In this document: piece by piece, positions 4,346-22,002 of the stretch
Numbering within the stretch: position 1 is the first letter of the stretch
Layout: the number at the start of each line of letters is the position of its first letter
Origin: Stutzerimonas stutzeri
GTDB taxonomy: Bacteria > Pseudomonadota > Gammaproteobacteria > Pseudomonadales > Pseudomonadaceae
Direction of reading: 5' to 3'
Length of the DNA: 64,000 nt
Assembly: GCF_000219605.1 (NCBI RefSeq)
Contig: NC_015740.1
Coordinates: forward strand, 2,976,001-3,040,000
Notes under the pieces: generated by a model
Told to the model about the DNA's origin: nothing
Seen by the model: only the letters and a program-made list of their open reading frames with translations
The model's database searches: none
Made by a program: the position numbers and the translations under genes

Positions 4346-6178
4346 TTATTGATGTTGGCGATTTAAAGGCCCGCAACTTGGTAGATAGAAACGCCTGACC
4401 AAGTCATCTGATTCAATTGTAAAACTACAATTATTATCACTGCACTTCACGAAGCGGTTGTATCTGTTCCGTAGGGCGTCATATGTTTTTGACTCGTACA
4501 GTTTAAGCGGAGCAGCACAATCGGGACATAGGCCAATCGGATTGCTCTTTGCGTGGTCTCCGCAGCAACTCGCACAACTCCTGCAGATGTAGCGACCAGC
4601 ATCACACTTCAATGAGCTATCACGCGAATCAATAATATCGTAGCATCCTTGACCCATGCAGTGATTTATATAGTGACCTTTTCGGAATTCAACGCAATTT
4701 GGATTTGGACATTTGAAAACCGTGAGCCGATACGCCGGTGCCATGTCTTTTTTGACCAGCTTGCCATTTTCGACTGCCATATATTCCACACGCGCATAGC
4801 GCAGATCTGGAATCATCAGAGAAGAGCAGCAGCGACAATGAATTACTTTGAAAATCTCCCTCAACCTGTTCAGGTAGCCCGCAACCTTTATGGGGAAGTC
4901 TTGTTCGGTCGGCTCTGCGGAATGCAAATAGTTTATATCGTAATGAGCAAACCAGTCATAAATATTAAATTCAGTATAGTTTTTGCCAGTATTTGGAATC
5001 ACTTTCGGATAATGACAAGACTTGCCACGACATAGATAAATTTCCTGCTTTTTCCAGTAGACAGCTTCGCAAGAAAGTTTTTGGCTTTTTTGATATGGAT
5101 TTTCCAGAGTGCTGCATGCCGGAAACAGTTCAAGTATCTCGCCTATATCCTGCTCAGGATTGATTTTTTCGGATATAATGGCTTCCCACAAGCTCGCCAT
5201 GAACAGGTCGTATACATTGTCCAGCGTGTTCCCAGCTAGCACCAAGCTAAAAATTTCCTTCAGTATAAAAATATCAGCTCTTGATCGAAGACTTTCGGTA
5301 CGCTCGTAAAGATTGACAAACTTCAGGTCCTTTTCATAGAGGTATTTTTTGAACTGATAGTAACTGAACGTCGGACCGATGACAGGGTGCATCATGATGC
5401 CACCGTCTAGGTGAGCAAGACTCCTGATTTTTGTTTTTATATAATCAGGCGGGAAATCTTTACCGGAATAAATATCTTTTACATACTCATTGATAGATTC
5501 GAGTTCTTTATCCCTACCACGCGCATATTTCCCCAAGTAGCCCGCTAGTAGGCCAAAGAGCTTCAAGTCAGGGGGTAATTTTCCCAGAGACGAGTTAAAA
5601 AGCCGTGCAGCCTCGCTATTATCGATTGACTGCAGATGATTTGCAGCCTCTTCAACGTTTCTAGCAATGTATTCTGCTGGCAAGGATAACCAGTCAATAT
5701 CCTTCAGAGGAGAAATATGGCCATTTGTGGCAAGAAACTCGATATTCTTTGACCAATCCTGCTTGTCAGACAGCATGGATAGAAGTTCATCAAGCCCCAT
5801 CAGATCAATGATTCTTTCTGTTTGCCACCTTGTACGGGTCGATAGATTACGACTGATGGAAGAGGCTATGATATCTCTAATTCTAATGTACACCGCAACG
5901 TGTGATTGACCACTTTTCTGGGTTATCAATCCAATTAGCTCATCGAGGGGGAGTTCCCCCAAGTCGTTGGCACTGGTTGCGATCCATTTTCCTTTATGAT
6001 CTTCAAGATGAAAATGAATGAGCTGACCTGCAGTTGGCCTTCCTTGGCCAAGCCATCCACTCTCATGTAGAAATACATCGAATCCGTCTATAGACTCCAC
6101 GAAGCCAAATTTATTTTCAGTATTTTTGGCACTATTGTAACCGCCGAACCATTTGACGACTCCCGCACTTGCTGTCAT
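4346..6178 (-). CDS. Cold-shock-domain / cysteine-cluster protein
   Basis: 610 aa. Residues ~6-75 resemble a cold-shock (OB) fold: GVVKWFGGYNSAKN, then KFGFVESIDGFDVFLHESG, matching the K-W-F / G-F-I / D-V-F-x-H pattern, so single-stranded nucleic acid binding is likely. The middle is helical and unrecognised. The C-terminal ~170 residues are rich in cysteine pairs (CRCC, CPNPNC, CRSCASCC, CPDC, CSDNNC), a likely set of zinc ribbons. Its ATG is 4 nt after the stop of the third pglX piece, so it is read with that operon. The gene is clearly more A+T-rich than its neighbours, a sign of separate origin. Confidence 0.65.
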   Translation of the reverse strand: MTASAGVVKWFGGYNSAKNTENKFGFVESIDGFDVFLHESGWLGQGRPTAGQLIHFHLEDHKGKWIATSANDLGELPLDELIGLITQKSGQSHVAVYIRIRDIIASSISRNLSTRTRWQTERIIDLMGLDELLSMLSDKQDWSKNIEFLATNGHISPLKDIDWLSLPAEYIARNVEEAANHLQSIDNSEAARLFNSSLGKLPPDLKLFGLLAGYLGKYARGRDKELESINEYVKDIYSGKDFPPDYIKTKIRSLAHLDGGIMMHPVIGPTFSYYQFKKYLYEKDLKFVNLYERTESLRSRADIFILKEIFSLVLAGNTLDNVYDLFMASLWEAIISEKINPEQDIGEILELFPACSTLENPYQKSQKLSCEAVYWKKQEIYLCRGKSCHYPKVIPNTGKNYTEFNIYDWFAHYDINYLHSAEPTEQDFPIKVAGYLNRLREIFKVIHCRCCSSLMIPDLRYARVEYMAVENGKLVKKDMAPAYRLTVFKCPNPNCVEFRKGHYINHCMGQGCYDIIDSRDSSLKCDAGRYICRSCASCCGDHAKSNPIGLCPDCAAPLKLYESKTYDALRNRYNRFVKCSDNNCSFTIESDDLVRRFYLPSCGPLNRQHQ

Positions 6179-6182
6179 TGCT

Positions 6183-7973
6183 TTACTCCGAAGCTCCGCC
6201 GGTTACGGCCTTCACTTCGGCCAGCAGATCGCCAAACTTTCCGTAGTTCAGCTTCACGCCGTCATCTAGATCGAGGCTGATGCGCTGGTCGGCGTAGTGG
6301 CGGAGTTTTTCGTCGAAGGCGGCGAGTTCGGCCTGCTGGTTGTGCAGGGTAGTGAGTTCTTTTTCTAGGCGCTTTTTCTCGGCGGTGCTGGTGCTGGCTT
6401 CGAGGTCTTTTTCCAGCTTGGCAGCATAGTTGGCAAGCTTGGCGGTGAGGGGGATGACATACTCGGTGCGCATGCGCGCCAGGGTGCCTTCGTTGTAGCG
6501 GTGCAGGTAGACCAGGCACTCGAAGGCTTTGTGTTTGCCGGAGCTGAACAGCCAATAGATCGGGCGCTTTTTGTAGGTGCGCAGGTGGTCCTTGAAGAAC
6601 TGGGTGCTCAGGTAGCGGCGGATGGTATCGAGGCTGTTCTCGCCCTTCTTGGGCTTGATGGCGTGCAGGCATAGGCTCTCGGCGACGAAGTCTAGGTTTT
6701 GCTGCAGGTTTTCGTCACCCCAGACCACGCGGATGAATTCGCGAAAGCGGTGGGTGGCGTCGTCGGAGAACCATTCCTGATCGGTGAGCGGCAGGATGGC
6801 GTCGTCGTCCGGGGCAAAGCGCGGCGAGGGGATCTGACGCAGGTAGTCCTGCAGGGTTTCGCCCTGGCTGGCGAGGATCAGGCCGGGCTTGTCCAGCGAA
6901 TAGCGGCCCATCATGCAGCCGATGGCGTAGGACACCAGTTCGCGCAGGGTGTCGCATTGCAGCAGGGTTTCGAGCTCTTCCTCGCTGCGGTTGCCCCCGT
7001 AACGGTATTGTGGGTTACAAGTGAGGGTGACTTCATTCGATGGTACTTCAGGTGCTAACTCAGCCTGTAAGCTATAACTAGTGATGAAGGCGCGATTGTT
7101 TTCTTCTTCTAGTAGCTGCGTCTTGAGAGTTTCTTTTCTCCATTTGCATCGAGTTTCTTGGTAAACACGACTTAATACTGGGTGAAAAACATCAGTGTCT
7201 AATAGGGGTGGGGTGACAAAGTCCCAGGAAGTTTCATAGGAGTCCCAGTCAGATTTTGCTTGGTCAATTAGCTGCTCAATTGTGTTGGGTGTAATCTGAG
7301 ATAAAGAATCTATGATTGGCATAGAGGCAATGTGGCCAACTTCAAAGTTAAGAGTTGGTGATATTGCTGTAAGAAGGCGACGAGAGACTAACGAGTTCAT
7401 GAAACCTGTTAGCTTTAATCTGTACTCATGATCTGGTGTGAAGATACAGCATCCGGCCACATCAAAAATAAACCCGCTGGGGTAGTACCGTAATGCAAGG
7501 TTGCCGCTGGAAATTTTCGACCAGCTAATACTAGGCTTGAAGTACTCTGAGATGCTTTTTATTGTTCTAGTGGGGCTTCCATAGAGTGATGCAGCATGAC
7601 CAATTACTTCCTCTCCATCGTTTTCCCAATTTAGTACATGCTCGATATTTCCATACCACTTTCTAAAGTCACCCCCTTTGTTGTAGGGAAACCATTTGGC
7701 ACCACACTGCGCTGCTTCTTCGCGACTAGATGCGGAGGTATGCAGCTTTGTCATTGCCACTTCCCACCAGCTACGGAGAAATCGGCCATTATCACTCGTA
7801 GCCATTCCCTGTCTTGTGTCGCCATTTTTCTTTAATGGCTCTCCATTTGAAAATGCTGCTCTGAGTTCATGAGATACCCAATAAGCCACCGGACTCCCTG
7901 GAATCTTCATAAAATCCGCCGCTGAAGCCCGGTAAAAATACTGGCTCATGTCCTTGCTTTGTTCCTGACTCAT
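6183..7973 (-). CDS. pglX: BREX PglX, C-terminal piece (target recognition region and tail)
   Basis: 596 aa from the ATG at 7973, which overlaps the reverse transcriptase stop as ATGA (7970-7973). An open frame continues upstream to 8447, but only inside the RT gene, so it is rejected. It opens with a short new leader and then FYRASAADFMKIPGSPVAYW and RQGMATSDNGRFLRSWWEV, which in PglX follow the methyltransferase core. The C-terminus ends in a Lys/Glu-rich coiled segment (about residues 500-560). PglX is the adenine methyltransferase that marks host DNA in BREX phage defence. Roughly 7020-7970 (residues 1-315) is visibly A+T-rich beside the G+C-rich tail, as if the recognition domain had been swapped. 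It cannot methylate without the N-terminal piece at 12779-14752. Confidence 0.85.
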   Translation of the reverse strand: MSQEQSKDMSQYFYRASAADFMKIPGSPVAYWVSHELRAAFSNGEPLKKNGDTRQGMATSDNGRFLRSWWEVAMTKLHTSASSREEAAQCGAKWFPYNKGGDFRKWYGNIEHVLNWENDGEEVIGHAASLYGSPTRTIKSISEYFKPSISWSKISSGNLALRYYPSGFIFDVAGCCIFTPDHEYRLKLTGFMNSLVSRRLLTAISPTLNFEVGHIASMPIIDSLSQITPNTIEQLIDQAKSDWDSYETSWDFVTPPLLDTDVFHPVLSRVYQETRCKWRKETLKTQLLEEENNRAFITSYSLQAELAPEVPSNEVTLTCNPQYRYGGNRSEEELETLLQCDTLRELVSYAIGCMMGRYSLDKPGLILASQGETLQDYLRQIPSPRFAPDDDAILPLTDQEWFSDDATHRFREFIRVVWGDENLQQNLDFVAESLCLHAIKPKKGENSLDTIRRYLSTQFFKDHLRTYKKRPIYWLFSSGKHKAFECLVYLHRYNEGTLARMRTEYVIPLTAKLANYAAKLEKDLEASTSTAEKKRLEKELTTLHNQQAELAAFDEKLRHYADQRISLDLDDGVKLNYGKFGDLLAEVKAVTGGASE

Positions 7974-10966
7974 GTCAATTTCCCCTTGGGTAATGCTTTG
8001 CGCGCGTGCGCCATATCCTGGTTGAACCCGTCCGGGACGGGCTTGAAGTCTCTGGCGGGCGAACGGTGGCTGGACTGGAATTGACGCAGGGCCAGCACGT
8101 CGATCTCGCCGGTGATGCAGTAGTCGTGGTTGCCGCCCTTGACGCGCAGCAGATCGCGTTTCCAGCGATCCTTGTAAGGTGCGCGGATGCGGCTGTCGCC
8201 GTACTGGCGGTTGTTGCACTGGATGATGTAGGCGTGGATATCCAGGGCGGCGGACTCCACCAGTGCATTGAAGGTGTCGGTATCGCTGTTCCACTCGGGG
8301 ACGAACAGGGCGTCGATCTTGCCGCGCAGGTCTGCACGGTAGCGGATGTTGGTCAGCTCGCTGCAGATCATCAGGGCAAAGCGGAAGTCGCCGTGCTGGA
8401 TGATAGGCGGCTTTTGCCAAGCGCTGGCTGGGCGCATTTCCAGGCAAGCGAGGCGGAACAGCTCCTGCTCTTCGTGCAAGGCCGGATACTGCTTGTCCTG
8501 GCGGTAGAGCATCAGTGACGGGAAGCCGAGGCCATCATGGGTGAGAGAGGCCCAGACCTGATTGCGCACGCGCCTTTTAGGTACGTGAAGGTATTCCACG
8601 CCAGTAATCAGGGAGATACCACGGCCCTTGAGCTTGTCGGCGATGCGCATGAACCACTGCGGTGGCAGGGCAAGCTCGGGCATGACTAGGTAGCCTGCAC
8701 CATCGGGCCTAGAAATCAGCTCGTTGATCAGGCGATTGAGGCGCCGGTAGCGGCGGCGGCTAGCCGGCTCAGGTTCACGCATGACGGCAGCGACAAAGCT
8801 CTGATCGCTGGTTTCCCAGCTGGCCACGGCAATGGTCTGTCTGGCCTTGGGCTCTCCGTCTGGTATATGCAGTACCGGGTGCTTGTCCCAGCGCGGCATC
8901 TTGTCCTCAGACAGATCGAAGCCACGCAGAGCCCGGACTACCTTGCCCAACGCGTCACAGTGTCGGGTGTTGAATGGATCGGGGGCGATCAGGTACAGCT
9001 CGTTGAGGCTGAAGGGTCGGGTGGCGAAGATGAGACCATTCGGTGTGCCGTGCTTGAAGTTGAGCCAACCAGAGAGCGTACTGATGCCATCGACTACTTC
9101 GTCAGGCAGCAGACCCAGAGTGTCTGAACTGGTGAGTCTCTTGCGTGACGGAATACCGCGCTGACTAATCATCTCCTTGGGCAGGCTAGCGAAGCGCAAG
9201 GGCATGTGTGCCAGGTCGTAACTGAAGAGGCGCGCCTGGTCTTTTTGCAGCTCGCGCACGTTGTCCAGCAAACCGCCCAGTGCCGAGCCCACATAATGCA
9301 GGCTGGCTTCGAGTCCAGTCAGAAGTTTCTTCCAGCCTGCAGCGCCGGTCTTGCTCAGCCGTGATGGGAACGCCGACAGAATGCTTTCGTACACTGACAA
9401 GGCCAGTGCTAGGCGCCAGCGTTCCGAGCACTCAACTAGGGGCGCCTCATTAGACTGCGCCTTGATCTCGAATTTGCAGTCCCTCTCCACCGTTACCACC
9501 AGAGTATCCAGCGCCCTGATGAGTTGACCGAGCTGCTCGAAGTCCTCGCAGGCCATGGCCATGCGAATAATGCGTGGCAGATACTGAGCCAGCTCGAAGA
9601 ATTTGGCTGGCGTCAGCAAGTGGTTAATGACCGCCCTGAGAAAAGCATGGCGGTGCTGCTGCCAGGCCTCCGGCGGTAGATCACGCTCATAAGCTTCGTA
9701 GTCGCGCAGATTGAGGGCAAAACCGGCACGGTGCAGGGTCAAGGCATCGGTCTTGCGCAGGTTGTCGGCCTGCTCACCTGCATGATTGGTGGCCTTGAGC
9801 AGATCGGTGGCTACGCTAGCGGGCGAGTCCGGCAGATCCGGCAGAGCACGCCACTCACTAGCACGCCGATTGATCTGCTCGGAAATGGCGTTGACCAGTG
9901 CTACACCGGACGCACCGGAGAGAATGAACAGCTTGTTCTTGCTGTTTTCAAACGCAATGCGGCTGCCTTTGAGGTAGCTTGGCGCGAACAAGATGCTCTT
10001 TTTGCCCGGGTCACTCTTGAGCAGGGCATTGCCACCCTCTCGGCTGAAGATCCACTCCCAGAACTGCTCCGTGCTTTTGATGCCGCTGGTGTTTTCCATC
10101 ACCAGCAAAATGTCATCCACGTAGCGCCCGTAATACAGCGGCACCACTTGCTGCTCGATGAACTGATCGAGCTTGAGCAGCGCAGCATTGGCAACCACGG
10201 CGGACGCGGGCAGGCCGACGGGCAGGCCCTTCTGTAATGGCGTTGCCTTTGCCCAGGCCTCCATGGCGCGGATAAACAAGCGATGGAGCTTGGTCTGAGC
10301 CTTGTTCAGGTTGATACCAGCCAGTTTGAGAAAGCCCTTGTACAGCATGAAGCCGGGGTTCAGCTCGTGATAGAAGCTGCTGACATCGGCGGTAAGGGCC
10401 AGCACATTCTTCTTGCCCGCCAGGGCGGTGCGCATGGCCTCGATGCCACCATCACGCCAGTCTCGGAAGGGCTTCAGGTAGGGCTTGAACGAGCCCAGTG
10501 CCAGCTCGTTGATGTGGTCGTGACGGTTACGACGCAAGCGGCTGCCATAGACATTGGCACTCAACTGCTTATCGAAAAGGTCGCCGACCTCCAGCATCCA
10601 TAGCGCTGACAGCACATGAAAGTTCATGCTGCAGTTAGCCATCAGGCGGAACTGAGCTACAGGCTTTTTATTGGCCTCAAGCACGTTGCGCCACTCGGCT
10701 TCTGGCGAAGAGAGGATCAGCCCCGAATCCAGCTCGCCTTTATCGTACTGGATGGCTTTGGGTGTCAGCATCCAGCCACCTAGAAACTCGGCATCCTCGA
10801 CCCAGGCCTCATCTGCGCCATTGATTAACCCCCGCAGATGCTCCAAGTTGCCCGCCAACTGGTCTTCATAGTCGGCAATTTCGAGCAGCGACGGGTTGGT
10901 CGAGTAGTAGAGATCGACCTTGGCCTTGCGGTAAGCGAGGCCGAGATCCTTCAGCAAAACCGTCAC
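7970..10966 (-). CDS. drt1a: Reverse transcriptase-nitrilase fusion (UG1/DRT1-type defence RT)
   Basis: 998 aa, GTG start overlapping the stop of the 67-aa ORF (GTGA). RT motifs: A at about residue 190 (LTADVSSFYHEL), B (KGLPVGLPASAVVANAA), and C with the catalytic YVDD near 282 (YYGRYVDDILLVME). A helical middle of ~300 residues follows. From ~720 there is a nitrilase fold with the three expected residues: Glu in VMPELALP (~765), Lys in RQDKQYPALHEE (~824) and Cys in ALMICSELT (~868). RT fused to a C-terminal nitrilase is the published architecture of the UG1 class, defence-associated RT type 1, which protects against phage; its mechanism was not settled to my knowledge. All active-site motifs look intact. 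The odd point is the setting: it separates two pieces of pglX. Confidence 0.9.
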   Translation of the reverse strand: MTVLLKDLGLAYRKAKVDLYYSTNPSLLEIADYEDQLAGNLEHLRGLINGADEAWVEDAEFLGGWMLTPKAIQYDKGELDSGLILSSPEAEWRNVLEANKKPVAQFRLMANCSMNFHVLSALWMLEVGDLFDKQLSANVYGSRLRRNRHDHINELALGSFKPYLKPFRDWRDGGIEAMRTALAGKKNVLALTADVSSFYHELNPGFMLYKGFLKLAGINLNKAQTKLHRLFIRAMEAWAKATPLQKGLPVGLPASAVVANAALLKLDQFIEQQVVPLYYGRYVDDILLVMENTSGIKSTEQFWEWIFSREGGNALLKSDPGKKSILFAPSYLKGSRIAFENSKNKLFILSGASGVALVNAISEQINRRASEWRALPDLPDSPASVATDLLKATNHAGEQADNLRKTDALTLHRAGFALNLRDYEAYERDLPPEAWQQHRHAFLRAVINHLLTPAKFFELAQYLPRIIRMAMACEDFEQLGQLIRALDTLVVTVERDCKFEIKAQSNEAPLVECSERWRLALALSVYESILSAFPSRLSKTGAAGWKKLLTGLEASLHYVGSALGGLLDNVRELQKDQARLFSYDLAHMPLRFASLPKEMISQRGIPSRKRLTSSDTLGLLPDEVVDGISTLSGWLNFKHGTPNGLIFATRPFSLNELYLIAPDPFNTRHCDALGKVVRALRGFDLSEDKMPRWDKHPVLHIPDGEPKARQTIAVASWETSDQSFVAAVMREPEPASRRRYRRLNRLINELISRPDGAGYLVMPELALPPQWFMRIADKLKGRGISLITGVEYLHVPKRRVRNQVWASLTHDGLGFPSLMLYRQDKQYPALHEEQELFRLACLEMRPASAWQKPPIIQHGDFRFALMICSELTNIRYRADLRGKIDALFVPEWNSDTDTFNALVESAALDIHAYIIQCNNRQYGDSRIRAPYKDRWKRDLLRVKGGNHDYCITGEIDVLALRQFQSSHRSPARDFKPVPDGFNQDMAHARKALPKGKLT

Positions 10967-11166
10967 TGAATGGCCTCCAGCAACATGGCCTTCTTCTCTG
11001 CCTCGGATTTGCCATCCACCAGCCGGATATAGGCACCCGCATAGTTCGGGTAGGCGGCATTTTCGATCACGAAGGCAGTGGTCGAGACCACCTCACCACT
11101 GATGCTGTCGAAGGCCCGCGCCCCAGGTGGGCCATGGTTGTGATTTTCAGGGCTGACGCTATTCAT
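10963..11166 (-). CDS. PglX middle segment as its own 67-aa ORF
   Basis: 67 aa. After a ~15-residue new leader it reads GARAFDSISGEVVSTTAFVI and then AYIRLVDGKSEAEKKAML, the stretch that in PglX-type methyltransferases directly follows the catalytic core and precedes the FYRASAADF...PGSP region starting the third piece. It overlaps the membrane-protein stop (ATGA, 11163-11166) and the RT start (GTGA, 10963-10966). PglX-N already ends with what looks like a different version of this segment (GIAFGTAATV ... GAYCYVEYEDI), so this piece may be a relic of a second pglX allele rather than an essential part. Assignment rests on remembered family sequence. Confidence 0.65.
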   Translation of the reverse strand: MNSVSPENHNHGPPGARAFDSISGEVVSTTAFVIENAAYPNYAGAYIRLVDGKSEAEKKAMLLEAIQ

Positions 11167-12782
11167 TCAGGCTTCTTGCCAGCCTCCATCATCTTGTCAT
11201 CGAGTTTTTTCAGTCCAGCCAGCAGGGTGCGGCCGATAAAGCGACTGGGCCTGGAGCTCAGCACCTTGTAGCCCAGCTCTGCCGTGCCCACCAGGGCTCG
11301 CGCGGTGCCTTCGATGGCCACACCAGCGCCTTCGAAGAGAGCTTCCACGCCATCGCCACCGTTCTTGTAGCGCTCACCGGCATGGTTGATGCCCTGGATG
11401 GTGGCGAAGAAGCCCAGCCCGCCGACGCCAGCGAGCAGCGCATCAACGCCAGTATCCTTGACATCTACTATCGAGCCGCCGAGCGTGAGATCGACCGAGT
11501 TCTCCAACTCGATATTGCTGTAGCCCGAATCGATGGCGCGGGTCTGTTCGGCGACTTCCGAGGTGGCGATCACCGGGATGTCGGCATCTACGCTGTTGAC
11601 GTAGGCCGCACTGGCAGTGGCCTTGAGCTGGAAGGCCTGCCCGTCGATGATGATGTCGGTGCCCGGATTGTTGAAGTGCTCGAACAGGGTGCCGCCGGTA
11701 TCCGCCGCCACCAGCTGCTCGAAATAGGCGCCCTTGGTCAGGGAGGCAAGCCCGGCCAGCTGTTCGGCAGGCAGGAACAGGGTCTCCAGCCAGATTTCGG
11801 CATCACTCATGCCCGCATAGTTGCCGTTGACGCTACGCAGCGCGTCGTAAATGTTGCCCGCAGTAGTGAAGTCATCCCACAGGGAAACCGGAACCGACAA
11901 GGCCGAAAGCCAGAGTGCCGCCTTGAGCGGTAGCTCGTTGTCCTGTTCCCGCGTCACTTCCTGCGCGATGAATTGCTCGATCTGCTTTTGACTGGCAGTG
12001 ATCCGCGCTTCGGCACGGCTCTTGAGTTCGGAAAAATGTGCATTGAGTCGAGCAAAATCCTCGGTGTGCTGCGTTTTCAGCTTTCTGTGCATGAAATTCA
12101 GCTGGTTAATCGCCTGATCGATCCCACTAAAATCGGGACCACCGGAATACTTCATCTTGTTCCACCAGGAGAACTTCTCGTAGGTCTCTTCCCACAGGTC
12201 GCTGAGTTGCTCACGCCGCTTTTGCAGACGGTTATGCGTTTCGCGAAGGGTGGTTTCAGCCTTGATGAGTGGAATCCGGCTCTTGATATCTTCCAGGCGT
12301 TGCTGGCATTGGCGGCGGGTGCGCGCCACCTCGGCCACAAGCCGCCGGTACAGATGTTGGCGGGTTAACTCGTCCAGGTGCTGGTCCAGCTTGGGCTGCA
12401 GCGCGTTCAGCACGCTCCGGGTCAGCGGGCTTTTGCGGGCCTGCGGCAGGGCGGCAGCCAGCGCGTGCCGGGCCGCGGACAGCTCCTGGGCTTGCAGTAC
12501 TTCGTTGAGCGCGGCAAGCACCTGCGCATAAGCGCGCCGCTGGCGTCGATGGAAAAGGTAGCCGCCCCATGCGACCAGCCCGACCACAAGAACCAGAGCC
12601 GGCAAGAGTGCATACAGCCAGCGGGATTCGACCTGCTGGCCAGCCAGCAGGATGGAGTGCGTGGGCAGCCATTGCATCGCCAGCAGCATTAACAGCCCCA
12701 ACAGCGAAAGCAGCAGCGCCTGCTGCAAACGCTGGCGACTGGCTCCCAGGCAATCCTGCAATTGCGGTGTTGAGATGGTCAT
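11163..12782 (-). CDS. Membrane-anchored coiled-coil protein inserted in the pglX locus
   Basis: 539 aa. Two hydrophobic segments near residues 21-40 (LLLSLLGLLMLLAMQWL) and 57-76 (LYALLPALVLVVGLVAWGG) make an N-terminal hairpin. A long Arg/Glu/Gln-rich helical, probably coiled-coil, region covers ~85-290, and a globular C-terminus holds a glycine-rich hydrophobic stretch (ALLAGVGGLGFFATI) near 460. No enzyme motif is seen. It starts on the stop of PglX-N (ATGA, 12779-12782) and its stop overlaps the start of the 67-aa ORF. It is two frames upstream of the RT-nitrilase, so it may be the RT's membrane partner; some DRT1 loci are listed with a second gene, but I cannot tell whether this is it. 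Confidence 0.6.
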   Translation of the reverse strand: MTISTPQLQDCLGASRQRLQQALLLSLLGLLMLLAMQWLPTHSILLAGQQVESRWLYALLPALVLVVGLVAWGGYLFHRRQRRAYAQVLAALNEVLQAQELSAARHALAAALPQARKSPLTRSVLNALQPKLDQHLDELTRQHLYRRLVAEVARTRRQCQQRLEDIKSRIPLIKAETTLRETHNRLQKRREQLSDLWEETYEKFSWWNKMKYSGGPDFSGIDQAINQLNFMHRKLKTQHTEDFARLNAHFSELKSRAEARITASQKQIEQFIAQEVTREQDNELPLKAALWLSALSVPVSLWDDFTTAGNIYDALRSVNGNYAGMSDAEIWLETLFLPAEQLAGLASLTKGAYFEQLVAADTGGTLFEHFNNPGTDIIIDGQAFQLKATASAAYVNSVDADIPVIATSEVAEQTRAIDSGYSNIELENSVDLTLGGSIVDVKDTGVDALLAGVGGLGFFATIQGINHAGERYKNGGDGVEALFEGAGVAIEGTARALVGTAELGYKVLSSRPSRFIGRTLLAGLKKLDDKMMEAGKKPE

Positions 12783-14752
12783 TGGGTGGCGTCCGCGCTT
12801 TTAGCTGCCCTGAGGTTGCGCTCGTTCAAAGGAGGAAAGCTGACCGGCCTGCCGTCATCACCAATGTCCTCGTACTCGACGTAGCAATAGGCTCCAAGCG
12901 TCGCGGAATGTCCGTTTTTCTTGCACACGGTGGCTGCGGTACCAAAGGCGATGCCCATGACCATGTTGGCCATGTGCGCCATGCACTCGATGGACGATTC
13001 ACGCAGCAGCTTCATACGCAAGCCCTCGTATGAGGACAAGAACATCCAGCTCTGCATCGTGACCATCGCGTTGAAGCCGTAATCTTTGAGCAGCTCAAAA
13101 CCTCGCTCGATGAAAATGGCAAACAGATCCGACTTGCTGTTGGGGTAGGCCTTTTTGGCAAACTCCTTGAGGTCGGCGTTCATGCCCTTGCTGCCCATAT
13201 AAGGCGGGTTGGCGAACACGGCATCGTAACGTTGCGCCAGGATCCAGGCCTGCTGCACATAGGGCAGCAGCGTCTGTGCGGCGGGCCTCTGCATGGAGTC
13301 GCCCTCCCCGGCCAGTTGGCGCAGCTTCTGCAGCAGCTCGCCGAGCGGCTGGGCATCCTCGGCGGGCACGTCGATCAGCGAGCCGAAGGTCTTGGCCTGG
13401 GTAAAGCGCCCCAAGGTGGACCTGAGCAGTTGGTAGCGGTTGTCGGCCTGGGCGGCGGCGAGGTTGCTCTGCTCGCTGTCGAACAGGTTCTGCGACTGGC
13501 CGCGCTGCCAGTCACTGGTCAGGTTGAGGGCGCGCCAGAGGGCGTCGAGGTCGAGGTGGCGGCTTTCCTGCAGGGCCAGCACGTTGAGCTTAAGTTCGCG
13601 GCTGAAGATGCGGCGGTCGTCCTCGCGGGCCAGCATCATCAGCGCGAAGCCGGCGAGCTGGCCGGCGCGGTCGTCGATATCGAGACCACATAGGTTGTTT
13701 TCGAGGATCAATTGCGGAATGTCGCGGCTGCGGAAACCGCGCTCGGTGTAGATCTCCTTGAGCAGCTGGTAGGCCTCGACCAGGATGTGGCCGGAGCCGC
13801 AGGCCGGGTCGAGCACCTTAAGACTCAGCGGGTCGATGCTCTCCGGGGTGCTGGCGGCCAGTTGCGCCTGCACTTCGGGCGGCTGCTCGCCGGTGGCCAC
13901 GTAGTAGGGCATCTTGTCCTTGAGCGGCGAGTCCGGGTAGGTCTGCAGCCACTGGCGACCGAGGCTGTTCTGCACCAAGTACTGGACGATCCAGTTGGGG
14001 GTGAACAGTTGGGTGGCGGCGGGGATGTCCTCGCTCTTCACCACCTTGCCGATCACCTGGTCCTTCTTCTCGCTGATGTAGAACTGATAGAGCCAGCCAA
14101 TGATCTCGACGTCCTGCCAGTCCTCCTCAGGAATGGCAGCAACCAGCTCGCGGATCAGCGAGTCGGTCTTGGTCAGGTTGTCCGGCAGCAGCAGTTCGAG
14201 GGCATCGTCCACGGCTTCGAACAGGAAGGGCATGGCCTGATGCAGGGCCTGACATTGGGCCAGCAGCAGTTCGCGGTAGAGTTCCTCGTCCTTATTGCCG
14301 TCGAGCTTGAGTTCGGTGATGTGGGCCTTGTCGAGGCCTTCCAGTTCGATGTCCAGGCAGTCTTCGAGGATCTGCGGCATGCCGGCATTGCCATCGGCGG
14401 CACTGAGCACACGGCGACCATGATCGAGGTAACCCTTGATCTCCATGTAACGCAGTGCACAGAGACGGTTGAACCAGCTGTAGGCGGCCTGCTCCATGGT
14501 CTGGGCGAAGCCGAGCTGTTCGACCTTCTGCGCCAGTGCGGCACGCGGTCGGGCGATGCTGGCAGGAAATGCTCGCTGGGTACCGGTGCTATCGGTGATC
14601 AGGGCCAAGTCACCCTTGATCTCCAGCGGAGCAATGCCGAGCGACGGCACAGTGGATTCGCGAATGCCGAACAGGGCAGCACGCTTGCTCATGGCAGCTA
14701 TGAACGCCGTCCTGGCTTTGGGGGCGTAGCGTTTGATGGCGTTGGTGTTCAT
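12779..14752 (-). CDS. pglX: BREX PglX, N-terminal piece with the methyltransferase core
   Basis: 657 aa starting MNTNAIKRYAPKAR, typical of BREX type 1 PglX. The SAM-binding motif DPACGSGHILVEAYQLL is near residue 320 and the catalytic NPPY (FANPPYMGSKGMN) near 515, so the N6-adenine methyltransferase core is complete. It ends at PLNERNLRAAKSADATQ and stops where an intact PglX (roughly 1200 aa) would run on into the target-recognition part; that part is found as two ORFs at 10963-11166 and 6183-7973. The stop overlaps the membrane-protein start. Whether the pieces assemble into an active enzyme is unknown. A 138-bp gap separates it from the upstream fic gene. Confidence 0.9.
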   Translation of the reverse strand: MNTNAIKRYAPKARTAFIAAMSKRAALFGIRESTVPSLGIAPLEIKGDLALITDSTGTQRAFPASIARPRAALAQKVEQLGFAQTMEQAAYSWFNRLCALRYMEIKGYLDHGRRVLSAADGNAGMPQILEDCLDIELEGLDKAHITELKLDGNKDEELYRELLLAQCQALHQAMPFLFEAVDDALELLLPDNLTKTDSLIRELVAAIPEEDWQDVEIIGWLYQFYISEKKDQVIGKVVKSEDIPAATQLFTPNWIVQYLVQNSLGRQWLQTYPDSPLKDKMPYYVATGEQPPEVQAQLAASTPESIDPLSLKVLDPACGSGHILVEAYQLLKEIYTERGFRSRDIPQLILENNLCGLDIDDRAGQLAGFALMMLAREDDRRIFSRELKLNVLALQESRHLDLDALWRALNLTSDWQRGQSQNLFDSEQSNLAAAQADNRYQLLRSTLGRFTQAKTFGSLIDVPAEDAQPLGELLQKLRQLAGEGDSMQRPAAQTLLPYVQQAWILAQRYDAVFANPPYMGSKGMNADLKEFAKKAYPNSKSDLFAIFIERGFELLKDYGFNAMVTMQSWMFLSSYEGLRMKLLRESSIECMAHMANMVMGIAFGTAATVCKKNGHSATLGAYCYVEYEDIGDDGRPVSFPPLNERNLRAAKSADATQ

Positions 14753-14890: not shown

Positions 14891-16369
14891 TTAGTCATGG
14901 TTGATGACCTCGCGCCAGGCGGATTCCAGGGCATCGAAGACGGCTTCCGGTACCTGATGCTGGTATTGCTTGCGGCGGTTTTGCGAGAGCGTGCCGTTTT
15001 GGTCGAGGCAGAACATCACCAGCCGCGCGAGGGTGCTGTTGGGTATGTCGAATTGCTGATCGATACGGCGGTAGATGGCGTCGTAGCGATTAAGAAACTG
15101 GGTTTCTTCCTTGAGGTGGCGTTCGAGCGCCTGTTCGGTGGCGCGCAGCATAAATTCGGCGCAGGCGGTGCCGTCCCAGTAACGGTAAAGCGCTTCGTGG
15201 CCGGTGAAGTCGAAGGCGAACTGGCCCTCGTCGATAAAGGTCACGTCCCAGAAACGCCGCGCCGGTTCGGAGAACGCCTGCAGGGTGGCCAGGTAGTCGG
15301 CCTCGTTCTGGCGCAGGGCTACGGATACCGGCAGCAGCAGGCCGTGCTTGAGCGCGCCGCGCTGGCAGAGCACCTGATGGAAGAGAAAGCGTGACAGGCG
15401 GCCGTTGCCATCCATAAAAGGGTGAATAAACACAAAGCCAAACGAGACAATGCTGGCCAGCAACAGCGGGTCGAGGTCTTCGGGCGGCTGGTTGGCCAGT
15501 TGAATCAGCTGCTCCATCAACTCGCGGCCGAGCTCGGGCGGTGGCGGTAGATAGGTGACGCCGAGTGTGCCGCGCAGGCCGTTGCTGAGGTAGTTCTGCT
15601 GATGACGAAATGCAGCAGCCTGGGCATAAGGGTTACTGATGACGGCGTTTTGCAGCTCGACGAAATAGTCTTCATCTAGCTGGCGGGGCTGGTGGGCCTG
15701 CTTGAGCAAGTCAACGAAGCGGCCAGCTTTGTCTTCGCTGGGGGTTTCGTTCTCGATTGCGTAGGAATCGCGGGTTTCGTGCAGGTAGGCCCAAGCCAGG
15801 GCGCGGTTGAGGATGTCGCGGGGCAGCGATTCACTGAACTCGGTGGCTTGTTGCAGCAGGTTGCGATTCAGCAGCGTCTGCAGCGCATCGGTACGGCGCA
15901 GGGTGATGCAGTAGTCGAGGCTACCGATGCCGTTGAACAGCACGCGCCAACGGTTATTCTTCGCCCCTGTAACTGTGATGTACTGAGCGGGATCAAAGAG
16001 TGGCACGTAGGCGGTGCGCAGGTTGCCCGCCTGATGCTGGATGCACTGACCGGTGAAGTGCTCCCACAAGTACGCAGCTTTACGCAGGTACTGGCTGGTT
16101 GGGCTGGCCTCAATAGCGGCGCGGAGCTCGGGTTCAGTAATCAGCGGCAGGCACTGGGCCAGGATGGCCAGGTCAACGCCCTCGTGCTTTAGAGCGAACA
16201 GGATATGACCGAGCAGATTGTCGTCGGCCGGTGCCATGCTGGCGGGCACTGCCAGGGTTTGGCCGATGACTTCCTTGCGGGTGACCGCACGGACTTCCGC
16301 CAGGCGCGCAGGTGGCAGCGCCTTGACTGTCGACTCCTGAAGCAGGCGGTTGTACCCGACCGGTTGCAT
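14891..16369 (-). CDS. Fic-domain protein with an apparent inhibitory helix
   Basis: 492 aa. The Fic signature HPFMDGNGRLSR (HPFx[DE]GNGRxxR) is at about residues 316-327, so transfer of AMP or another nucleotide phosphate to a target protein is expected. SYAIEN near residue 203 fits the inhibitory motif [S/T]xxxE[G/N], upstream of the Fic core as in class II Fic proteins, so the enzyme should be self-inhibited until released. It sits between the BREX pieces brxC and pglX on the same strand, 138 bp before pglX. That suggests an abortive-infection-type toxin guarding the BREX locus, which is inference; the target is not known. Confidence 0.85.
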   Translation of the reverse strand: MQPVGYNRLLQESTVKALPPARLAEVRAVTRKEVIGQTLAVPASMAPADDNLLGHILFALKHEGVDLAILAQCLPLITEPELRAAIEASPTSQYLRKAAYLWEHFTGQCIQHQAGNLRTAYVPLFDPAQYITVTGAKNNRWRVLFNGIGSLDYCITLRRTDALQTLLNRNLLQQATEFSESLPRDILNRALAWAYLHETRDSYAIENETPSEDKAGRFVDLLKQAHQPRQLDEDYFVELQNAVISNPYAQAAAFRHQQNYLSNGLRGTLGVTYLPPPPELGRELMEQLIQLANQPPEDLDPLLLASIVSFGFVFIHPFMDGNGRLSRFLFHQVLCQRGALKHGLLLPVSVALRQNEADYLATLQAFSEPARRFWDVTFIDEGQFAFDFTGHEALYRYWDGTACAEFMLRATEQALERHLKEETQFLNRYDAIYRRIDQQFDIPNSTLARLVMFCLDQNGTLSQNRRKQYQHQVPEAVFDALESAWREVINHD

Positions 16370-18256: not shown

Positions 18257-19512
18257 CTAGCGCAGCCGAATACGTTTGCCTTGTTGAATCTGTGCATCTA
18301 GCTCTGCTTTCAAGGCGCTGAGGAAACGATCCACGTCGGCCTGGGCCTCAAGGTAGACGCCATTACCCAGCTTGTTGAAAACGCTGGTGGCCGCAATTTC
18401 GACCACTGGCTTGGGTGGGGCGACAGGCTTGACCGGAACGGGAGGCGGCGTGCGCTCTTCCTTGACCTGGTTGCTACCTTGGGCCGCTTGCTGCGCGGCT
18501 TTTTCAGCTTGCTGCTGCAGCTTTTGCTGGCGATCCACCTCGGCTTGAATGGCGCGCTCCAGCTCGAAGATGCCGTCTTGCAGGCGCTCTTCGGCGGTTT
18601 GGCTTTCCAGTTGGTAAATGTGGGCCAGGCTGGTTTCAGTCTCGGCTTCGGCTTTAAGCAGCTGCAGTGGGCGCAGTAGGCGATTGCTTAGCTCAGCGCT
18701 TTCGATGCCGCTCTTGGCGATTTCGGCCTGCAGCAGGGCGATCTTCTGGTCTATCGCTGCCAGCGCCTGCTCGCGCTGTTCGGTGAGGATGCTGACGTTG
18801 ACTGTCTCAACGGTTTCTACCAAACCAGAGATTTTGTGCAGCTGGTTGTATGGGCTGGCATGGCTTTCGATGGCCTGAAGTTCGGCCATTGCCTTGCGGG
18901 CACTGTCATTCTTCTCCAGGGCGTTGCGGTTTTTTTCGAAGCGACGCAGGGCCTGTTGCAGCTGCTGCCAGCTGTGCAACTGGTTGGTGAAAAATTCGTT
19001 GAGGTCGCGGTAATCCTCTTCGAGGTCGAGGTAGTCGTTCTGGTTGTCGACCACCTCCTTGAAGAAGTCGACGCTATCGCTGTTGCCCAGCAGACGCTGT
19101 AGGGTCAGCAGAGACTTCTCGATTGTGCTTTTGCCTGGGAAGCGACCGACATCAACCTTGCTCTTGTAACTCTTGAGTTCGGAGAGCCAGGTTTCCAGGC
19201 GGCTGCGGTAGAAGGCATAGAGCTCTTTCTCACCGGCCGGGCCTAGGGCGTTGAACAGATCCTGACTGAGATTGCGGGCTTTCTTGAGCAATACCTCATC
19301 GGTCTGGCGCTTTTTCTGCACCGAGATTTCCCGACGCTTGCGGCTGTTGGTCAGGTATTCGAAAGCATCCGGCAATGCGAGGCTGGGGCCAGCAACATGG
19401 AAGGAAATCCGCCCGGCGGCAGCGAGGCGGCCGATCAACAGGAGGATTTCGCCATCAGGCCAGCCGAACGGACGCTTGTTGAAGCGCTCGACGATGTCTG
19501 ACATGTTGGCGC
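18257..19512 (-). pseudogene. brxC: BREX brxC, 3' third only (truncated at the IS21-family element)
   Basis: About 418 codons remain. Just inside the IS junction it reads VERFNKRPFGWPDGEILLLI, a recognisable BrxC C-terminal-region motif, followed by a long coiled-coil and a Pro-rich linker (PPPVPVKPVAPPKP). BrxC is normally around 1200 aa with an N-terminal P-loop ATPase, which is missing here. The open frame begins inside the IS end (19531), so any N-terminus would be fused to about six IS codons. The far side of the IS carries integrase sequence, not the rest of brxC, so the gap is a deletion or rearrangement rather than a simple insertion. The BREX cascade is therefore probably inactive unless it is complemented elsewhere. 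Confidence 0.8.
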
Positions 19513-19697
19513 TGATGGAAAATTGACCCACCCTGCCGATTGAAATTTGACCCAGGGCGGATTGCTGATTTTGTTACCAGCAACTGTGGATAAGTCTACC
19601 AGCGCAGCTGCTTTTGAACCCACTCCCTCGCTGTCCCAGTTCAGCTGTTGAAGACCTGCCACATGCAGCCATGCAGCAGGCCGTCGTCGCCATGAAA

Positions 19698-20501
19698 TCA
19701 GAACGGCTCATCGTCCTCCGGTTCCTGGCCGCCCTTACGCTTTCGCTCCCGTGATTTGATCTTGGCCTGGGCCGCCAAGCTACTGTGTTGCAGGCGATAG
19801 GACTCGTTACCGGTTTCGACGATGTGGCAGTGGTGGGTCAGCCGATCCAGCAGGGCGGTGGTCATCTTGGCGTCGCCGAACACGCTCGACCATTCGGCGA
19901 AGCTCAGGTTGGTGGTGATCACCACGCTGGTGTGTTCGTACAGCTTGGACAGCAGGTGAAACAGCAACGCACCGCCAGCCTGGCTGAACGGCAGATAACC
20001 CAGTTCGTCGAGGATGACCAGATCCATGCGCAGCAGTGCCTGGGCGATCCGCCCGGCTTTGCCGTCGTGTTTTTCGCGCTCCAGCAGATTGACCAGATCG
20101 ACCGTGGAGTAGAAGCGCACGCGCTTACCGTGCCGGGTGATGCCGGACACGGCCAGCGCGGTGGCTAGGTGGGTTTTACCGGTGCCTGGCCCACCGATCA
20201 GCACCACGTTCTGCGCGGTGTCGGTAAAGGCCAGGCTGGCCAGCTCGCTGATCAGGCGTGCGTCGGCGCTAGAGGCGTTGAAATCGAAGCTGGCCAGATC
20301 GCGGTGCATCGGCAGCTTGGCCATGTTCATCTGGTGGCTCACCGAGCGCATGGCGCGATCTGTGTGCTCTTGTTCCAGCAGGTGTTCGAGCAGCCACTTG
20401 GACGAGGCTGTGTTCGACTCACCCTGTGCAGTTAACTCCGCCCAGGCCGTGGCCATGCCGTGCAGGCGCAGCTCCTTGAGTTCCGCCATCAAATCACGCA
20501 T
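19698..20501 (-). CDS. istB: IS21-family helper ATPase IstB
   Basis: 267 aa from the ATG at 20501, overlapping the istA stop by 8 nt; the open frame upstream of it lies inside istA. Walker A is [11 protein letters not shown] and Walker B is [13 protein letters not shown], as in DnaC/IstB ATPases. IstB assists IstA in target selection and strand transfer. It appears intact. Confidence 0.93.
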
Positions 20502-22002
20502 GACCGACCTCCTCGGCCTGGCCACGCAGGCGGTCGTAGCGCGCCGTGTTAGCGACGGGGGCTTCCTTGAGCGACAAGTGGGTTTCGACGCTGGGTGGTG
20601 GTTCGGTCGCGGCCAGGCGCGCCACGACATTGAGGATGTGTTCGGCGCTCAGGCTGCCGCTTTCCAGTACCAGCTCAACAGCCACCAGCACCGCATCGAG
20701 CCCGGCGACTGGTACGGCAGCCAGAACTTGCGCCATGATCCGGTCACCGCCGGCATGACGCCCCAGACCGTGCTTAAGCTGACGCAGCGGCGCCGGCAGA
20801 TCAGCAAAGGGCGCGCCGTTGCGCAGCGCACCGGGCTTGCGTTCGATCAGCGGGAGGTAGTGCTGCCAGTCATAGCTGACCTGGTCGCGATCCAGCAAGC
20901 GGACATGGCTGGCGATCAGCGCGTCGTCAGCCACCACCTCGATTCGCGTCGGATACAAACGGCTGCTGACCCACTTACCCGCGTACTCACACGGCACCGA
21001 GTAGCGGTTGCGCCCGACGCTGACCAGGCAGGTGCTGGAGACCCGCGCAGGCCGCTCGACGTAACCGTCGAATGGCGCTGGCACAGGCATCAGTTCAGCG
21101 TGCTCCAACTCCAGCACTTCGGCCACACTCAGACCGCTGTATTGAGGGTGCGTCAGCTCGTTCCAAAGCGCGCGGCAGCGCTGGCCCAGCCAGGCATTGA
21201 GTTCCTCGAAGGAGTGAAACTGGCAGTCCTGGGCGTCTAGCCAGATACGCCTGCGGCTGTCTTGCACGTTCTTTTCAACGATGCCCTTTTCCCAACCAGC
21301 GGCGACGTTGCAGAAGTCCGGATCAAGCAGGTAATGCGCGCACATCACCGCAAAGCGTGCATTCACCGCCCGGCCTTTGCCCTTATTGACCTTGTCGACG
21401 GCGGTCTTCATGTTGTCGTAGATGCCCCGGCGCGGCACGCCGCCCAAGGCGCCGAACGAGCGTGTATGGGCGTCAAATAACATCTCATGGCCCTGGCTCG
21501 GATACGCCACAAGCCAGAACGCACGGCTGGCACACAGCTTCAGATGTGCCACCTGCATACGCCGGTAAATGCCGCCGACCAGCAAGCCTTCCTCGCTCCA
21601 GTCAAACTGAAACGCCTCGCCAAGAGCAAAGGTCAGTGGCACAAAGGCCTGCGACGCCTTGTCCTGTCCCCCTCGCCAGGCACGGATAAACGCGGTGAGC
21701 TGGCTGTAGCCACCGTCATAACCTTCGGCTTTGATTTGCGCCAACAGCGCCTTGGCACTGCGCCGCTGTTGCTTGGGCCGCAGCGAATCGGCCTTTAGCG
21801 CCTGCTCCAGCGTGGTGTGAAAAGGGCTGAGTTTGTTGAAGATCGCGCGGCGTTGGTAGACCGGCGGCTTGGCCTCAGGTGCTCTGACCCACTTGCGAAT
21901 CGTGTTGCGCGCCAACCCGGTGCGCTTGGCTATCTCATGCAGCGACAGCTTGTCGCGGAAATACATCCGGCGGATTTTGCCCATCATTTCCATACTGATC
22001 AC
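20494..22002 (-). CDS. istA: IS21-family transposase IstA
   Basis: 502 aa. An N-terminal helix-turn-helix ([20 protein letters not shown]) is followed by a DDE integrase core with Asp in AFQFDWSEE, Asp in [11 protein letters not shown] and Glu in [12 protein letters not shown]. The length fits the family (about 500 aa). It appears complete and, with the readable terminal repeats, the element may still be mobile. Confidence 0.93.

Follow-up and report, generated by a model that had tools for sequence, protein, structure and literature searches.

A BREX type I pglX gene apparently divided at its hinge, with predicted antiviral genes between the halves, in Stutzerimonas stutzeri

A stretch of 64,000 nucleotides of the Stutzerimonas stutzeri genome (RefSeq assembly GCF_000219605.1, contig NC_015740.1, positions 2,976,001 to 3,040,000; hereafter the window) carries the BREX gene pglX in separate reading frames, with genes for a membrane protein and for a reverse transcriptase (RT) bearing a C-terminal nitrilase domain between them. 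Is this the debris of insertions, a machine composed of BREX and RT parts, or a BREX system that harbors other genes inside a divided core gene? The five frames (pglX-N, the membrane protein, a 67-aa segment, the RT-nitrilase, and pglX-C, in this order on the minus strand) are all open, as a first-pass annotation of the sequence had stated, and the 4-nt overlaps that it had reported for all four junctions (in gene order ATGA, ATGA, GTGA, and ATGA) were verified (Table 1). With a probability of roughly 0.6 for the whole of it, we favor the reading that the locus belongs to a BREX type I system with a pglX cut at the hinge and exchangeable genes of predicted antiviral families in the gap, that the halves likely reassemble into a two-subunit PglX, and that the RT-nitrilase is likely an independent back-up effector.

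Two halves of one pglX

Compared with the NCBIfam model of BREX-1 PglX (1210 positions, cut-off 500 bits), pglX-N scores 762.9 bits over positions 1-631 and pglX-C 731.4 bits over positions 647-1210. Among solved chains, pglX-N aligns to residues 1-600 of 8c45 (Salmonella PglX) and to residues 1-613 of 9ewz, and pglX-C to residues 642-1223 of 8c45. The hinge of the Salmonella protein lies at residues 654-659 and its target-recognition domain (TRD) at 662-849 (PMC11341690; here and below, cited papers are drawn on through parts of their text). For the Escherichia coli enzyme, a methyltransferase domain at 211-650, a TRD at 651-837, and flexible hinge loops at 638-675 are given (PMC11842806). 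On these alignments, pglX is cut at the hinge between the methyltransferase domain and the TRD, which parts a methyltransferase half from a recognition half. Instead of the usual single chain of about 1200 aa, a form that is not a stated criterion for BREX, the strain has two genes coding for 657 and 596 aa.

The ratio of non-synonymous to synonymous substitution rates (dN/dS), calculated pairwise where possible (several pairs are saturated), is 0.085-0.18 for pglX-N, 0.06-0.15 for the C-terminal part of pglX-C, and 0.12-0.15 for the RT. Such ratios indicate purifying selection on the pieces compared.

Stand-alone recognition halves appear to be widespread. A search with pglX-C yielded 7852 proteins at E<=1e-30 among 7995 candidates scored; only lengths of about 328-1043 aa were eligible, so that intact PglX was excluded and the number provides no ratio of split to intact forms. 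Among the best 120 stand-alone matches, 114 measure 540-640 aa, and 113 share a start site ahead of the hinge motif (109 recognized by pattern, 98 of these at one offset, and four by eye). Their sources include Pseudomonas aeruginosa, Stutzerimonas, Marinobacter, Microbulbifer, Marinobacterium, Pseudohongiella, and Moraxellaceae; plasmid records with pglX-C relatives, split and intact taken together, number 264. For 16 of the 120, the longest contig is exactly as long as that of one of the best 120 RT matches (shifted control: mean 0.44, largest 4), and for five of the 120, one being the window, the same holds with the membrane protein (mean 0.43, largest 2), which is an indirect sign that C-halves neighbor both genes. 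In a tree of 38 PglX N-domain sequences, from which L110 and L111 were left out, the split requires at least three changes and occurs in two distant clades, and its origin in a single clade is rejected by the approximately unbiased (AU) test (p 0.0009).

The gap and its contents

Searches starting from the RT, each including the window's own genome, gave hits in 15 of 298 genomes of the family, 10 of 390 of the order, and 4 of 369 of the class, in addition to 10 contig loci. Together with the window, 11 split pglX loci were collected: eight contain an intact RT, one an RT in two frames, one an RT tail, and one no RT. Between the halves, L026 (G036) and L028 (G246) carry HEC-02A, HEC-02B, and the RT, and L027 (G046) carries SduA and the RT. 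The RT is alone in L065 (G333) and in two metagenome-assembled genomes (L042, whose contig ends within the C-half, and L045, which is the same record as L064). The gap of L029 (G192) contains an 820-aa RT and a separate 199-aa RT tail, that of L046 (Pseudomonas ceruminis) SIR2, HerA, and a 90-aa RT tail, that of L060 (G602) the RT and a HerA tail, and that of G233, spread over two contigs (L113 and L143), HEC-02A, HEC-02B, SIR2, and HerA. Names of the cargo are from PADLOC, except that HEC-02A of L028 and the cargo of L113/L143 were named by similarity. The cargo families Shedu, HEC-02, and SIR2-HerA are listed as stand-alone defense families.

A second instance of the window's exact order of five genes was not encountered. 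Chance is excluded as an explanation because a split at the same site recurs in ten other loci. The 11 loci, the purifying selection, and the 4-nt overlaps at 27 of the 34 junctions examined uphold the view of the first-pass annotation that the arrangement is maintained and does not result from random insertion. Disrupted frames in relatives, to which it had pointed as a warning sign, do occur for the RT (two frames in L029, a 90-aa tail in L046) but not otherwise. In four loci a displaced gene has left its tail directly before the next gene: a pglX-N tail before the RT in the window, RT tails before pglX-C in L046 and L029, and a HerA tail before pglX-C in L060. It appears from these tails that SIR2-HerA replaced the RT in L046 and that the RT replaced SIR2-HerA in L060. 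The tails likely persist since they hold the ribosome-binding and start region of the following gene. By this pattern of gene content, the gap behaves as an exchange slot for predicted antiviral genes.

One of these probable scars is the 67-aa segment, which had been annotated as the second of three consecutive PglX parts. The first and third parts do align to consecutive regions of PglX. The segment, however, falls on positions 568-620 of a PglX profile on which pglX-N already reaches position 602; it is an alternative version of the same tail, and a third consecutive piece is rejected. Natural PglX tails come in two versions, and the window has both. 'FPPxNERNL' ends pglX-N in the window, L026, L028, L045, and L065, with a similar tail in the intact PglX of L119, and 'RLVDGxSEAEK' is found in L027, L029, L042, L046, L060, and L113 and also in the intact PglX of L109. 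Over 53 aa, the segment shares 94% identity with the C-terminus of pglX-N from L029, whose genome belongs to the same genus, and the DNA ahead of the RT start is nearly identical in the window, L029, and L042. Compared with three relatives, the segment differs in length by one base just upstream of the shared frame, and this change brings its tail into the reading frame of the ATG whose bases overlap the stop codon of the membrane protein gene. Its dN/dS of 0.03-0.06 in comparison with three relatives may mostly predate the exchange. We read the segment as the remnant tail of an earlier pglX-N, left behind when a module of pglX-N plus membrane protein replaced the old 5' part; this scar would still supply the start region of the RT.

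The membrane protein matches the PADLOC family PDC-M72B with residues 310-445 (E 4.7e-16), and residues E355, D376, Q385, and K387 are invariant in 38 sequences. By eye, this set looks like a possible PD-(D/E)XK nuclease core. The predicted structure (mean pLDDT 64) has no match in the PDB at E<=0.001. A relative with 70% identity in L147:9197-10921 (G167) stands behind a non-BREX operon with genes for 724, 1043, and 1042 aa. Since this relative follows a different operon, the membrane protein probably moves between systems. Two genes, one encoding an ankyrin protein and the other 168 aa (PDC-M72A and PDC-M72B), lie between pglZ and brxL at L066:14059-15761.

A plausible scheme would be that PglX-N and PglX-C bind across the former hinge and form the methyltransferase and sensor of BREX. 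The genes would be translated by coupling from one mRNA, so that the recognition half would arise where the cargo is read; such coupling may provide the control logic that the first-pass annotation envisaged. Loss of the cargo would then tend to cost PglX, and the position between the halves would put the effector on the same mRNA as the recognition subunit. If it works like DRT1 (PMC13275509), the RT would synthesize protein-primed DNA, and the nitrilase would abort the infection once BREX has been overcome. More tentatively, and with somewhat less than even confidence, BREX with a split PglX may represent a distinct and widespread form, in which the hinge was opened on two or more occasions to give a plug-in slot; the recognition subunit would be translated through whichever module sits there, so that modules are exchanged inside, and guarded by, one core gene.

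The RT-nitrilase and the weighing of alternatives

The RT had been annotated as DRT1-type (UG1), an assignment that is wrong at the family level. Its residues 3-996 of 998 match positions 21-903 of the 907 in the PADLOC model RT_UG5-nitrilase with 1027.5 bits, whereas the Drt1a model yields 93.6 bits only. In 24 aligned RT sequences, the YVDD motif (282-285) and the residues E764, K825, and C868 do not vary, and C868 aligns with C1116 of DRT1. E764 and K825 presumably are catalytic residues of the nitrilase. We take DRT5S and DRT5L to be of the UG5 type, a term that the paper on them does not use. Template-free synthesis by both has been described, and C1116 of DRT1 is required for immunity (PMC13275509). 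The predicted structure of the RT (mean pLDDT 63, mostly <50 in the nitrilase part) matches the RT domains of DRT4, DRT6, DRT9, AbiK, and others; the solved DRT1 chain 9yfd is absent among the structure matches listed and was recovered by sequence alone. A group II intron is rejected: no Rfam model matches at its gathering score in window positions 1-24000, the group II RT model reaches 22.3 bits at a cut-off of 300, and the 4-nt gene overlaps leave no space for a ribozyme.

Relatives of the RT without pglX in the fetched stretch are L023-L025 (repeated in L038, L043, and L044), L037, L039-L041, L071 of E. coli, and L073/L074 of Sinorhizobium. RT-like DNA occurs in two of 5426 E. coli genomes, with no pglX beside it. 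Twelve plasmid records encode an RT-like protein, which covers most of the query in five; three of these five are from Sinorhizobium (>50% identity), and the two inspected have no adjacent pglX. Viral contigs contain no RT relative by the patterns used. Because relatives exist without pglX, the RT-nitrilase probably acts on its own. In a tree of 29 rows, to which L029 contributed the first part of its RT only, the nine slot RTs require four changes, three of them forced by well-supported branches, and stand-alone RTs of Pseudomonas, Stutzerimonas, E. coli, and Sinorhizobium are placed among or next to them. The E. coli locus L071:7690-17672 has its UG5 RT-nitrilase relative after hsdR, hsdM, hsdS, and a nuclease gene, in an island that ends at a tRNA-Leu; a second E. 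coli genome is annotated alike. In L029:8707-11741, identity to the window RT is 61% over the first 791 residues of the RT and 87% over the last 202, as though the gene joined two alleles.

Could the PglX halves and the RT-nitrilase nevertheless work as a single complex, the RT making DNA under the control of target recognition by PglX? The tight gene overlaps and the pairing of each PglX clade with its own RT clade would be in line with this, as would the association of the RT with the split. To avoid a bias toward the RT, this association was assessed by searches starting from PglX. They found the gene in 16 of 298 genomes of the family (6 split, 10 intact, by open frame), in 20 of 312 of the order (3 split including the window, 15 intact, and 2 partial, namely G497 and G423, whose open frames of 217 and 228 aa were excluded from the split/intact count), and in 7 of 56 of the genus (3 split, 4 intact). 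In the family and order samples, the RT is present in seven of eight split but in none of 25 intact genomes (Fisher p 1.9e-6, ignoring kinship), a comparison of RT searches with different cut-offs (1e-30 and 1e-60) that takes the 15 intact order genomes to be among the 390 searched for the RT. Against such a complex, related RTs occur elsewhere without pglX and in one case beside an intact pglX (L066), and SIR2-HerA stands in place of the RT in L046 and G233. The combined BREX-DRT complex of the first-pass annotation, if understood as obligate, is not supported by these loci, and we regard a composite machine as unlikely.

Another explanation for the split is exchange of specificity: a separate recognition gene would be easier to swap, comparable to HsdS, and the cargo would be a passenger that landed at the hinge. 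The TRD is indeed the variable part of pglX-C, with a proportion of non-synonymous differences (pN) of 0.37-0.47 vs 0.08-0.16 in the C-terminal part, and both its flanks are conserved. Among 113 C-halves (seven of the 120 matches were left out), the mean frequency of the majority residue reaches 0.85 at the hinge (residues 11-34), drops to 0.42-0.48 across most of the TRD, except for 0.73 at residues 91-110, and rises to 0.88-0.89 from residue 321 onward. The GC content of the TRD in the window (0.446 vs 0.604 in the rest of pglX-C) is a sign of probable exchange. However, intact PglX also has variable TRDs (PMC11842806), and no split without cargo is found among the 11 loci, so that passenger cargo in a gene divided for swapping seems quite unlikely.

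Decay would mean that pglX has been inactivated and that its halves are remnants of repeated insertions. The broken operon of this strain with its duplicated brxC end, the tails of displaced genes scattered in the slot, and the two-frame RT of L029 would fit, but the same cut site, open halves with their own starts, purifying selection, and the occurrence in two clades do not. Plain inactivation is rejected on these grounds, and decay in a wider sense is highly improbable. Finally, a diversity-generating retroelement, in which the RT rewrites the adjacent variable TRD, might be suspected from the RT gene directly upstream of that domain, but the RT is of the UG5 type and second matches of the TRD DNA are at chance level in the window and the whole genome, so that no template repeat was found there and the idea is rejected.

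The favored reading, a hinge-cut pglX with exchangeable cargo, has to be weighed against several adverse observations. The intact PglX of L114 sits within one of the split clades, and its place there needs a re-fusion or a further split. When kinship is taken into account, three independent pairs are left, in which the RT goes with the split in 2.8 on average (median p 0.25). In L066 (G600), a BREX operon with an intact PglX of 1184 aa, the RT comes directly after that gene and is thus independent of the split, and the slot of L029 holds an RT in two frames. Expression of the C-terminal domain of Salmonella PglX by itself is reported to have failed (PMC11341690). Moreover, the BREX core genes of the window strain are all open, yet the operon is in two parts at the break marked by IS21.

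The operon in this strain and known systems

All six core genes of BREX type I, brxA, brxB, brxC, pglX, pglZ, and brxL, are present in the genome by similarity; PADLOC models confirm BrxA, BrxB, BrxC, PglZ, and BrxL, and pglX is present as two halves. The genes pglZ and brxL are located just left of the window; the remaining part of the operon, with brxA, brxB, and a full brxC, is found roughly 0.71 Mb away, at 3.71 Mb on the opposite strand. The IS21 copy beside the full brxC is 98.9% identical over 2605 nt to the IS21 of the window, which flanks the second brxC end. A WYL-domain gene precedes brxA in the distant part (L136). Further genes in the window encode a radical SAM/B12 protein (PDC-M51A; 452-1678), an ankyrin-repeat protein (2012-4222), a protein with a sub-threshold cold-shock match (4346-6178), and a Fic protein (PDC-S24; 14891-16369).

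Table 1. Features of the split pglX locus and of the divided BREX operon.
Feature	Position	Strand	Basis or remark
pglX-N, N-terminal and methyltransferase half, 657 aa	12779..14752	-	NCBIfam BREX-1 PglX; 8c45 alignment
Membrane protein, 539 aa, slot cargo	11163..12782	-	residues 310-445 PDC-M72B-like, candidate defense family
67-aa segment, probable tail of earlier pglX-N	10963..11166	-	directly before RT start
UG5-type RT-nitrilase, 998 aa, slot cargo	7970..10966	-	PADLOC RT_UG5-nitrilase
pglX-C, target-recognition and C-terminal half, 596 aa	6183..7973	-	NCBIfam BREX-1 PglX; 8c45 alignment
Variable target-recognition region within pglX-C	7150..7904, limits approximate	-	low GC, low conservation
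Overlap motifs	ATGA 12779-12782; ATGA 11163-11166; GTGA 10963-10966; ATGA 7970-7973		
Duplicated brxC C-terminal part, 424 aa (residues 809-1223 of 1223)	18257..19531	-	tblastn with L046 BrxC; PADLOC BrxC model 795-1189
IS21 element (istB 19698-20630, istA 20494-22002)	19698..22002	-	Pfam IstB_IS21, E 1.1e-105; at BREX operon break
Distant BREX part	L136:7378-15138 (G000:3705377-3713137)		window counterpart 18257-22002

The locus thus presents what looks like a core immune enzyme divided in nature at a domain hinge, with other immune genes nested in the gap. On this view, the BREX methyltransferase would have two subunits, and its recognition half might be provided in trans; BREX recognition and its engineering would thereby become directly testable. 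UG5 RT-nitrilases, whose biology is little studied, in turn gain a recurrent genomic home. Halves of this kind were previously collected under the name PglX, since PADLOC has PglX models of 607 and 593 positions, which match the two halves here. Halves of about 600 aa carrying the same name, PglX, in the sources are a trap for annotation. In the available parts of the open-licence literature on BREX or pglX with reverse transcriptases, UG5, split or interrupted pglX, or nesting, no description of this arrangement was found, and the accessible main text of a 2026 BREX survey (PMC12839542) contains none of the words 'reverse transcriptase', 'split', or 'nitrilase'.

Among known systems, the locus is closest to BREX type I, with six core genes in the genome and both pglX halves above the BREX-1 PglX cut-off. 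It differs in that PglX is encoded by two hinge-cut genes with defense cargo between them, whereas PglX/BrxX is described as one chain in the parts of the literature consulted. The RT is like the UG5-nitrilase RTs (class 3 UG/Abi, relatives of DRT1) in its C-terminal nitrilase, its conserved active-site motifs, and its best model, but here it is found inside a split BREX gene; DRT1 itself shares with it the plan of a nitrilase-bearing UG/Abi RT at low similarity. HsdM and HsdS of type I restriction-modification systems are comparable in one respect, the encoding of methyltransferase and recognition parts by separate genes. The locus is not a member of that family, however: both halves are full-strength matches to BREX-1 PglX, the recognition gene is the C-half of PglX, and cargo parts the two genes. 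Finally, back-up effectors of BREX operons, such as Shedu, OLD-ABC/TOPRIM as in PARIS, and GmrSD (PMC12839542), also are further defense genes within a BREX operon. In that survey, as far as its available text goes, they stand beside or between core genes, whereas here they lie inside one core gene and leave tails on exchange.

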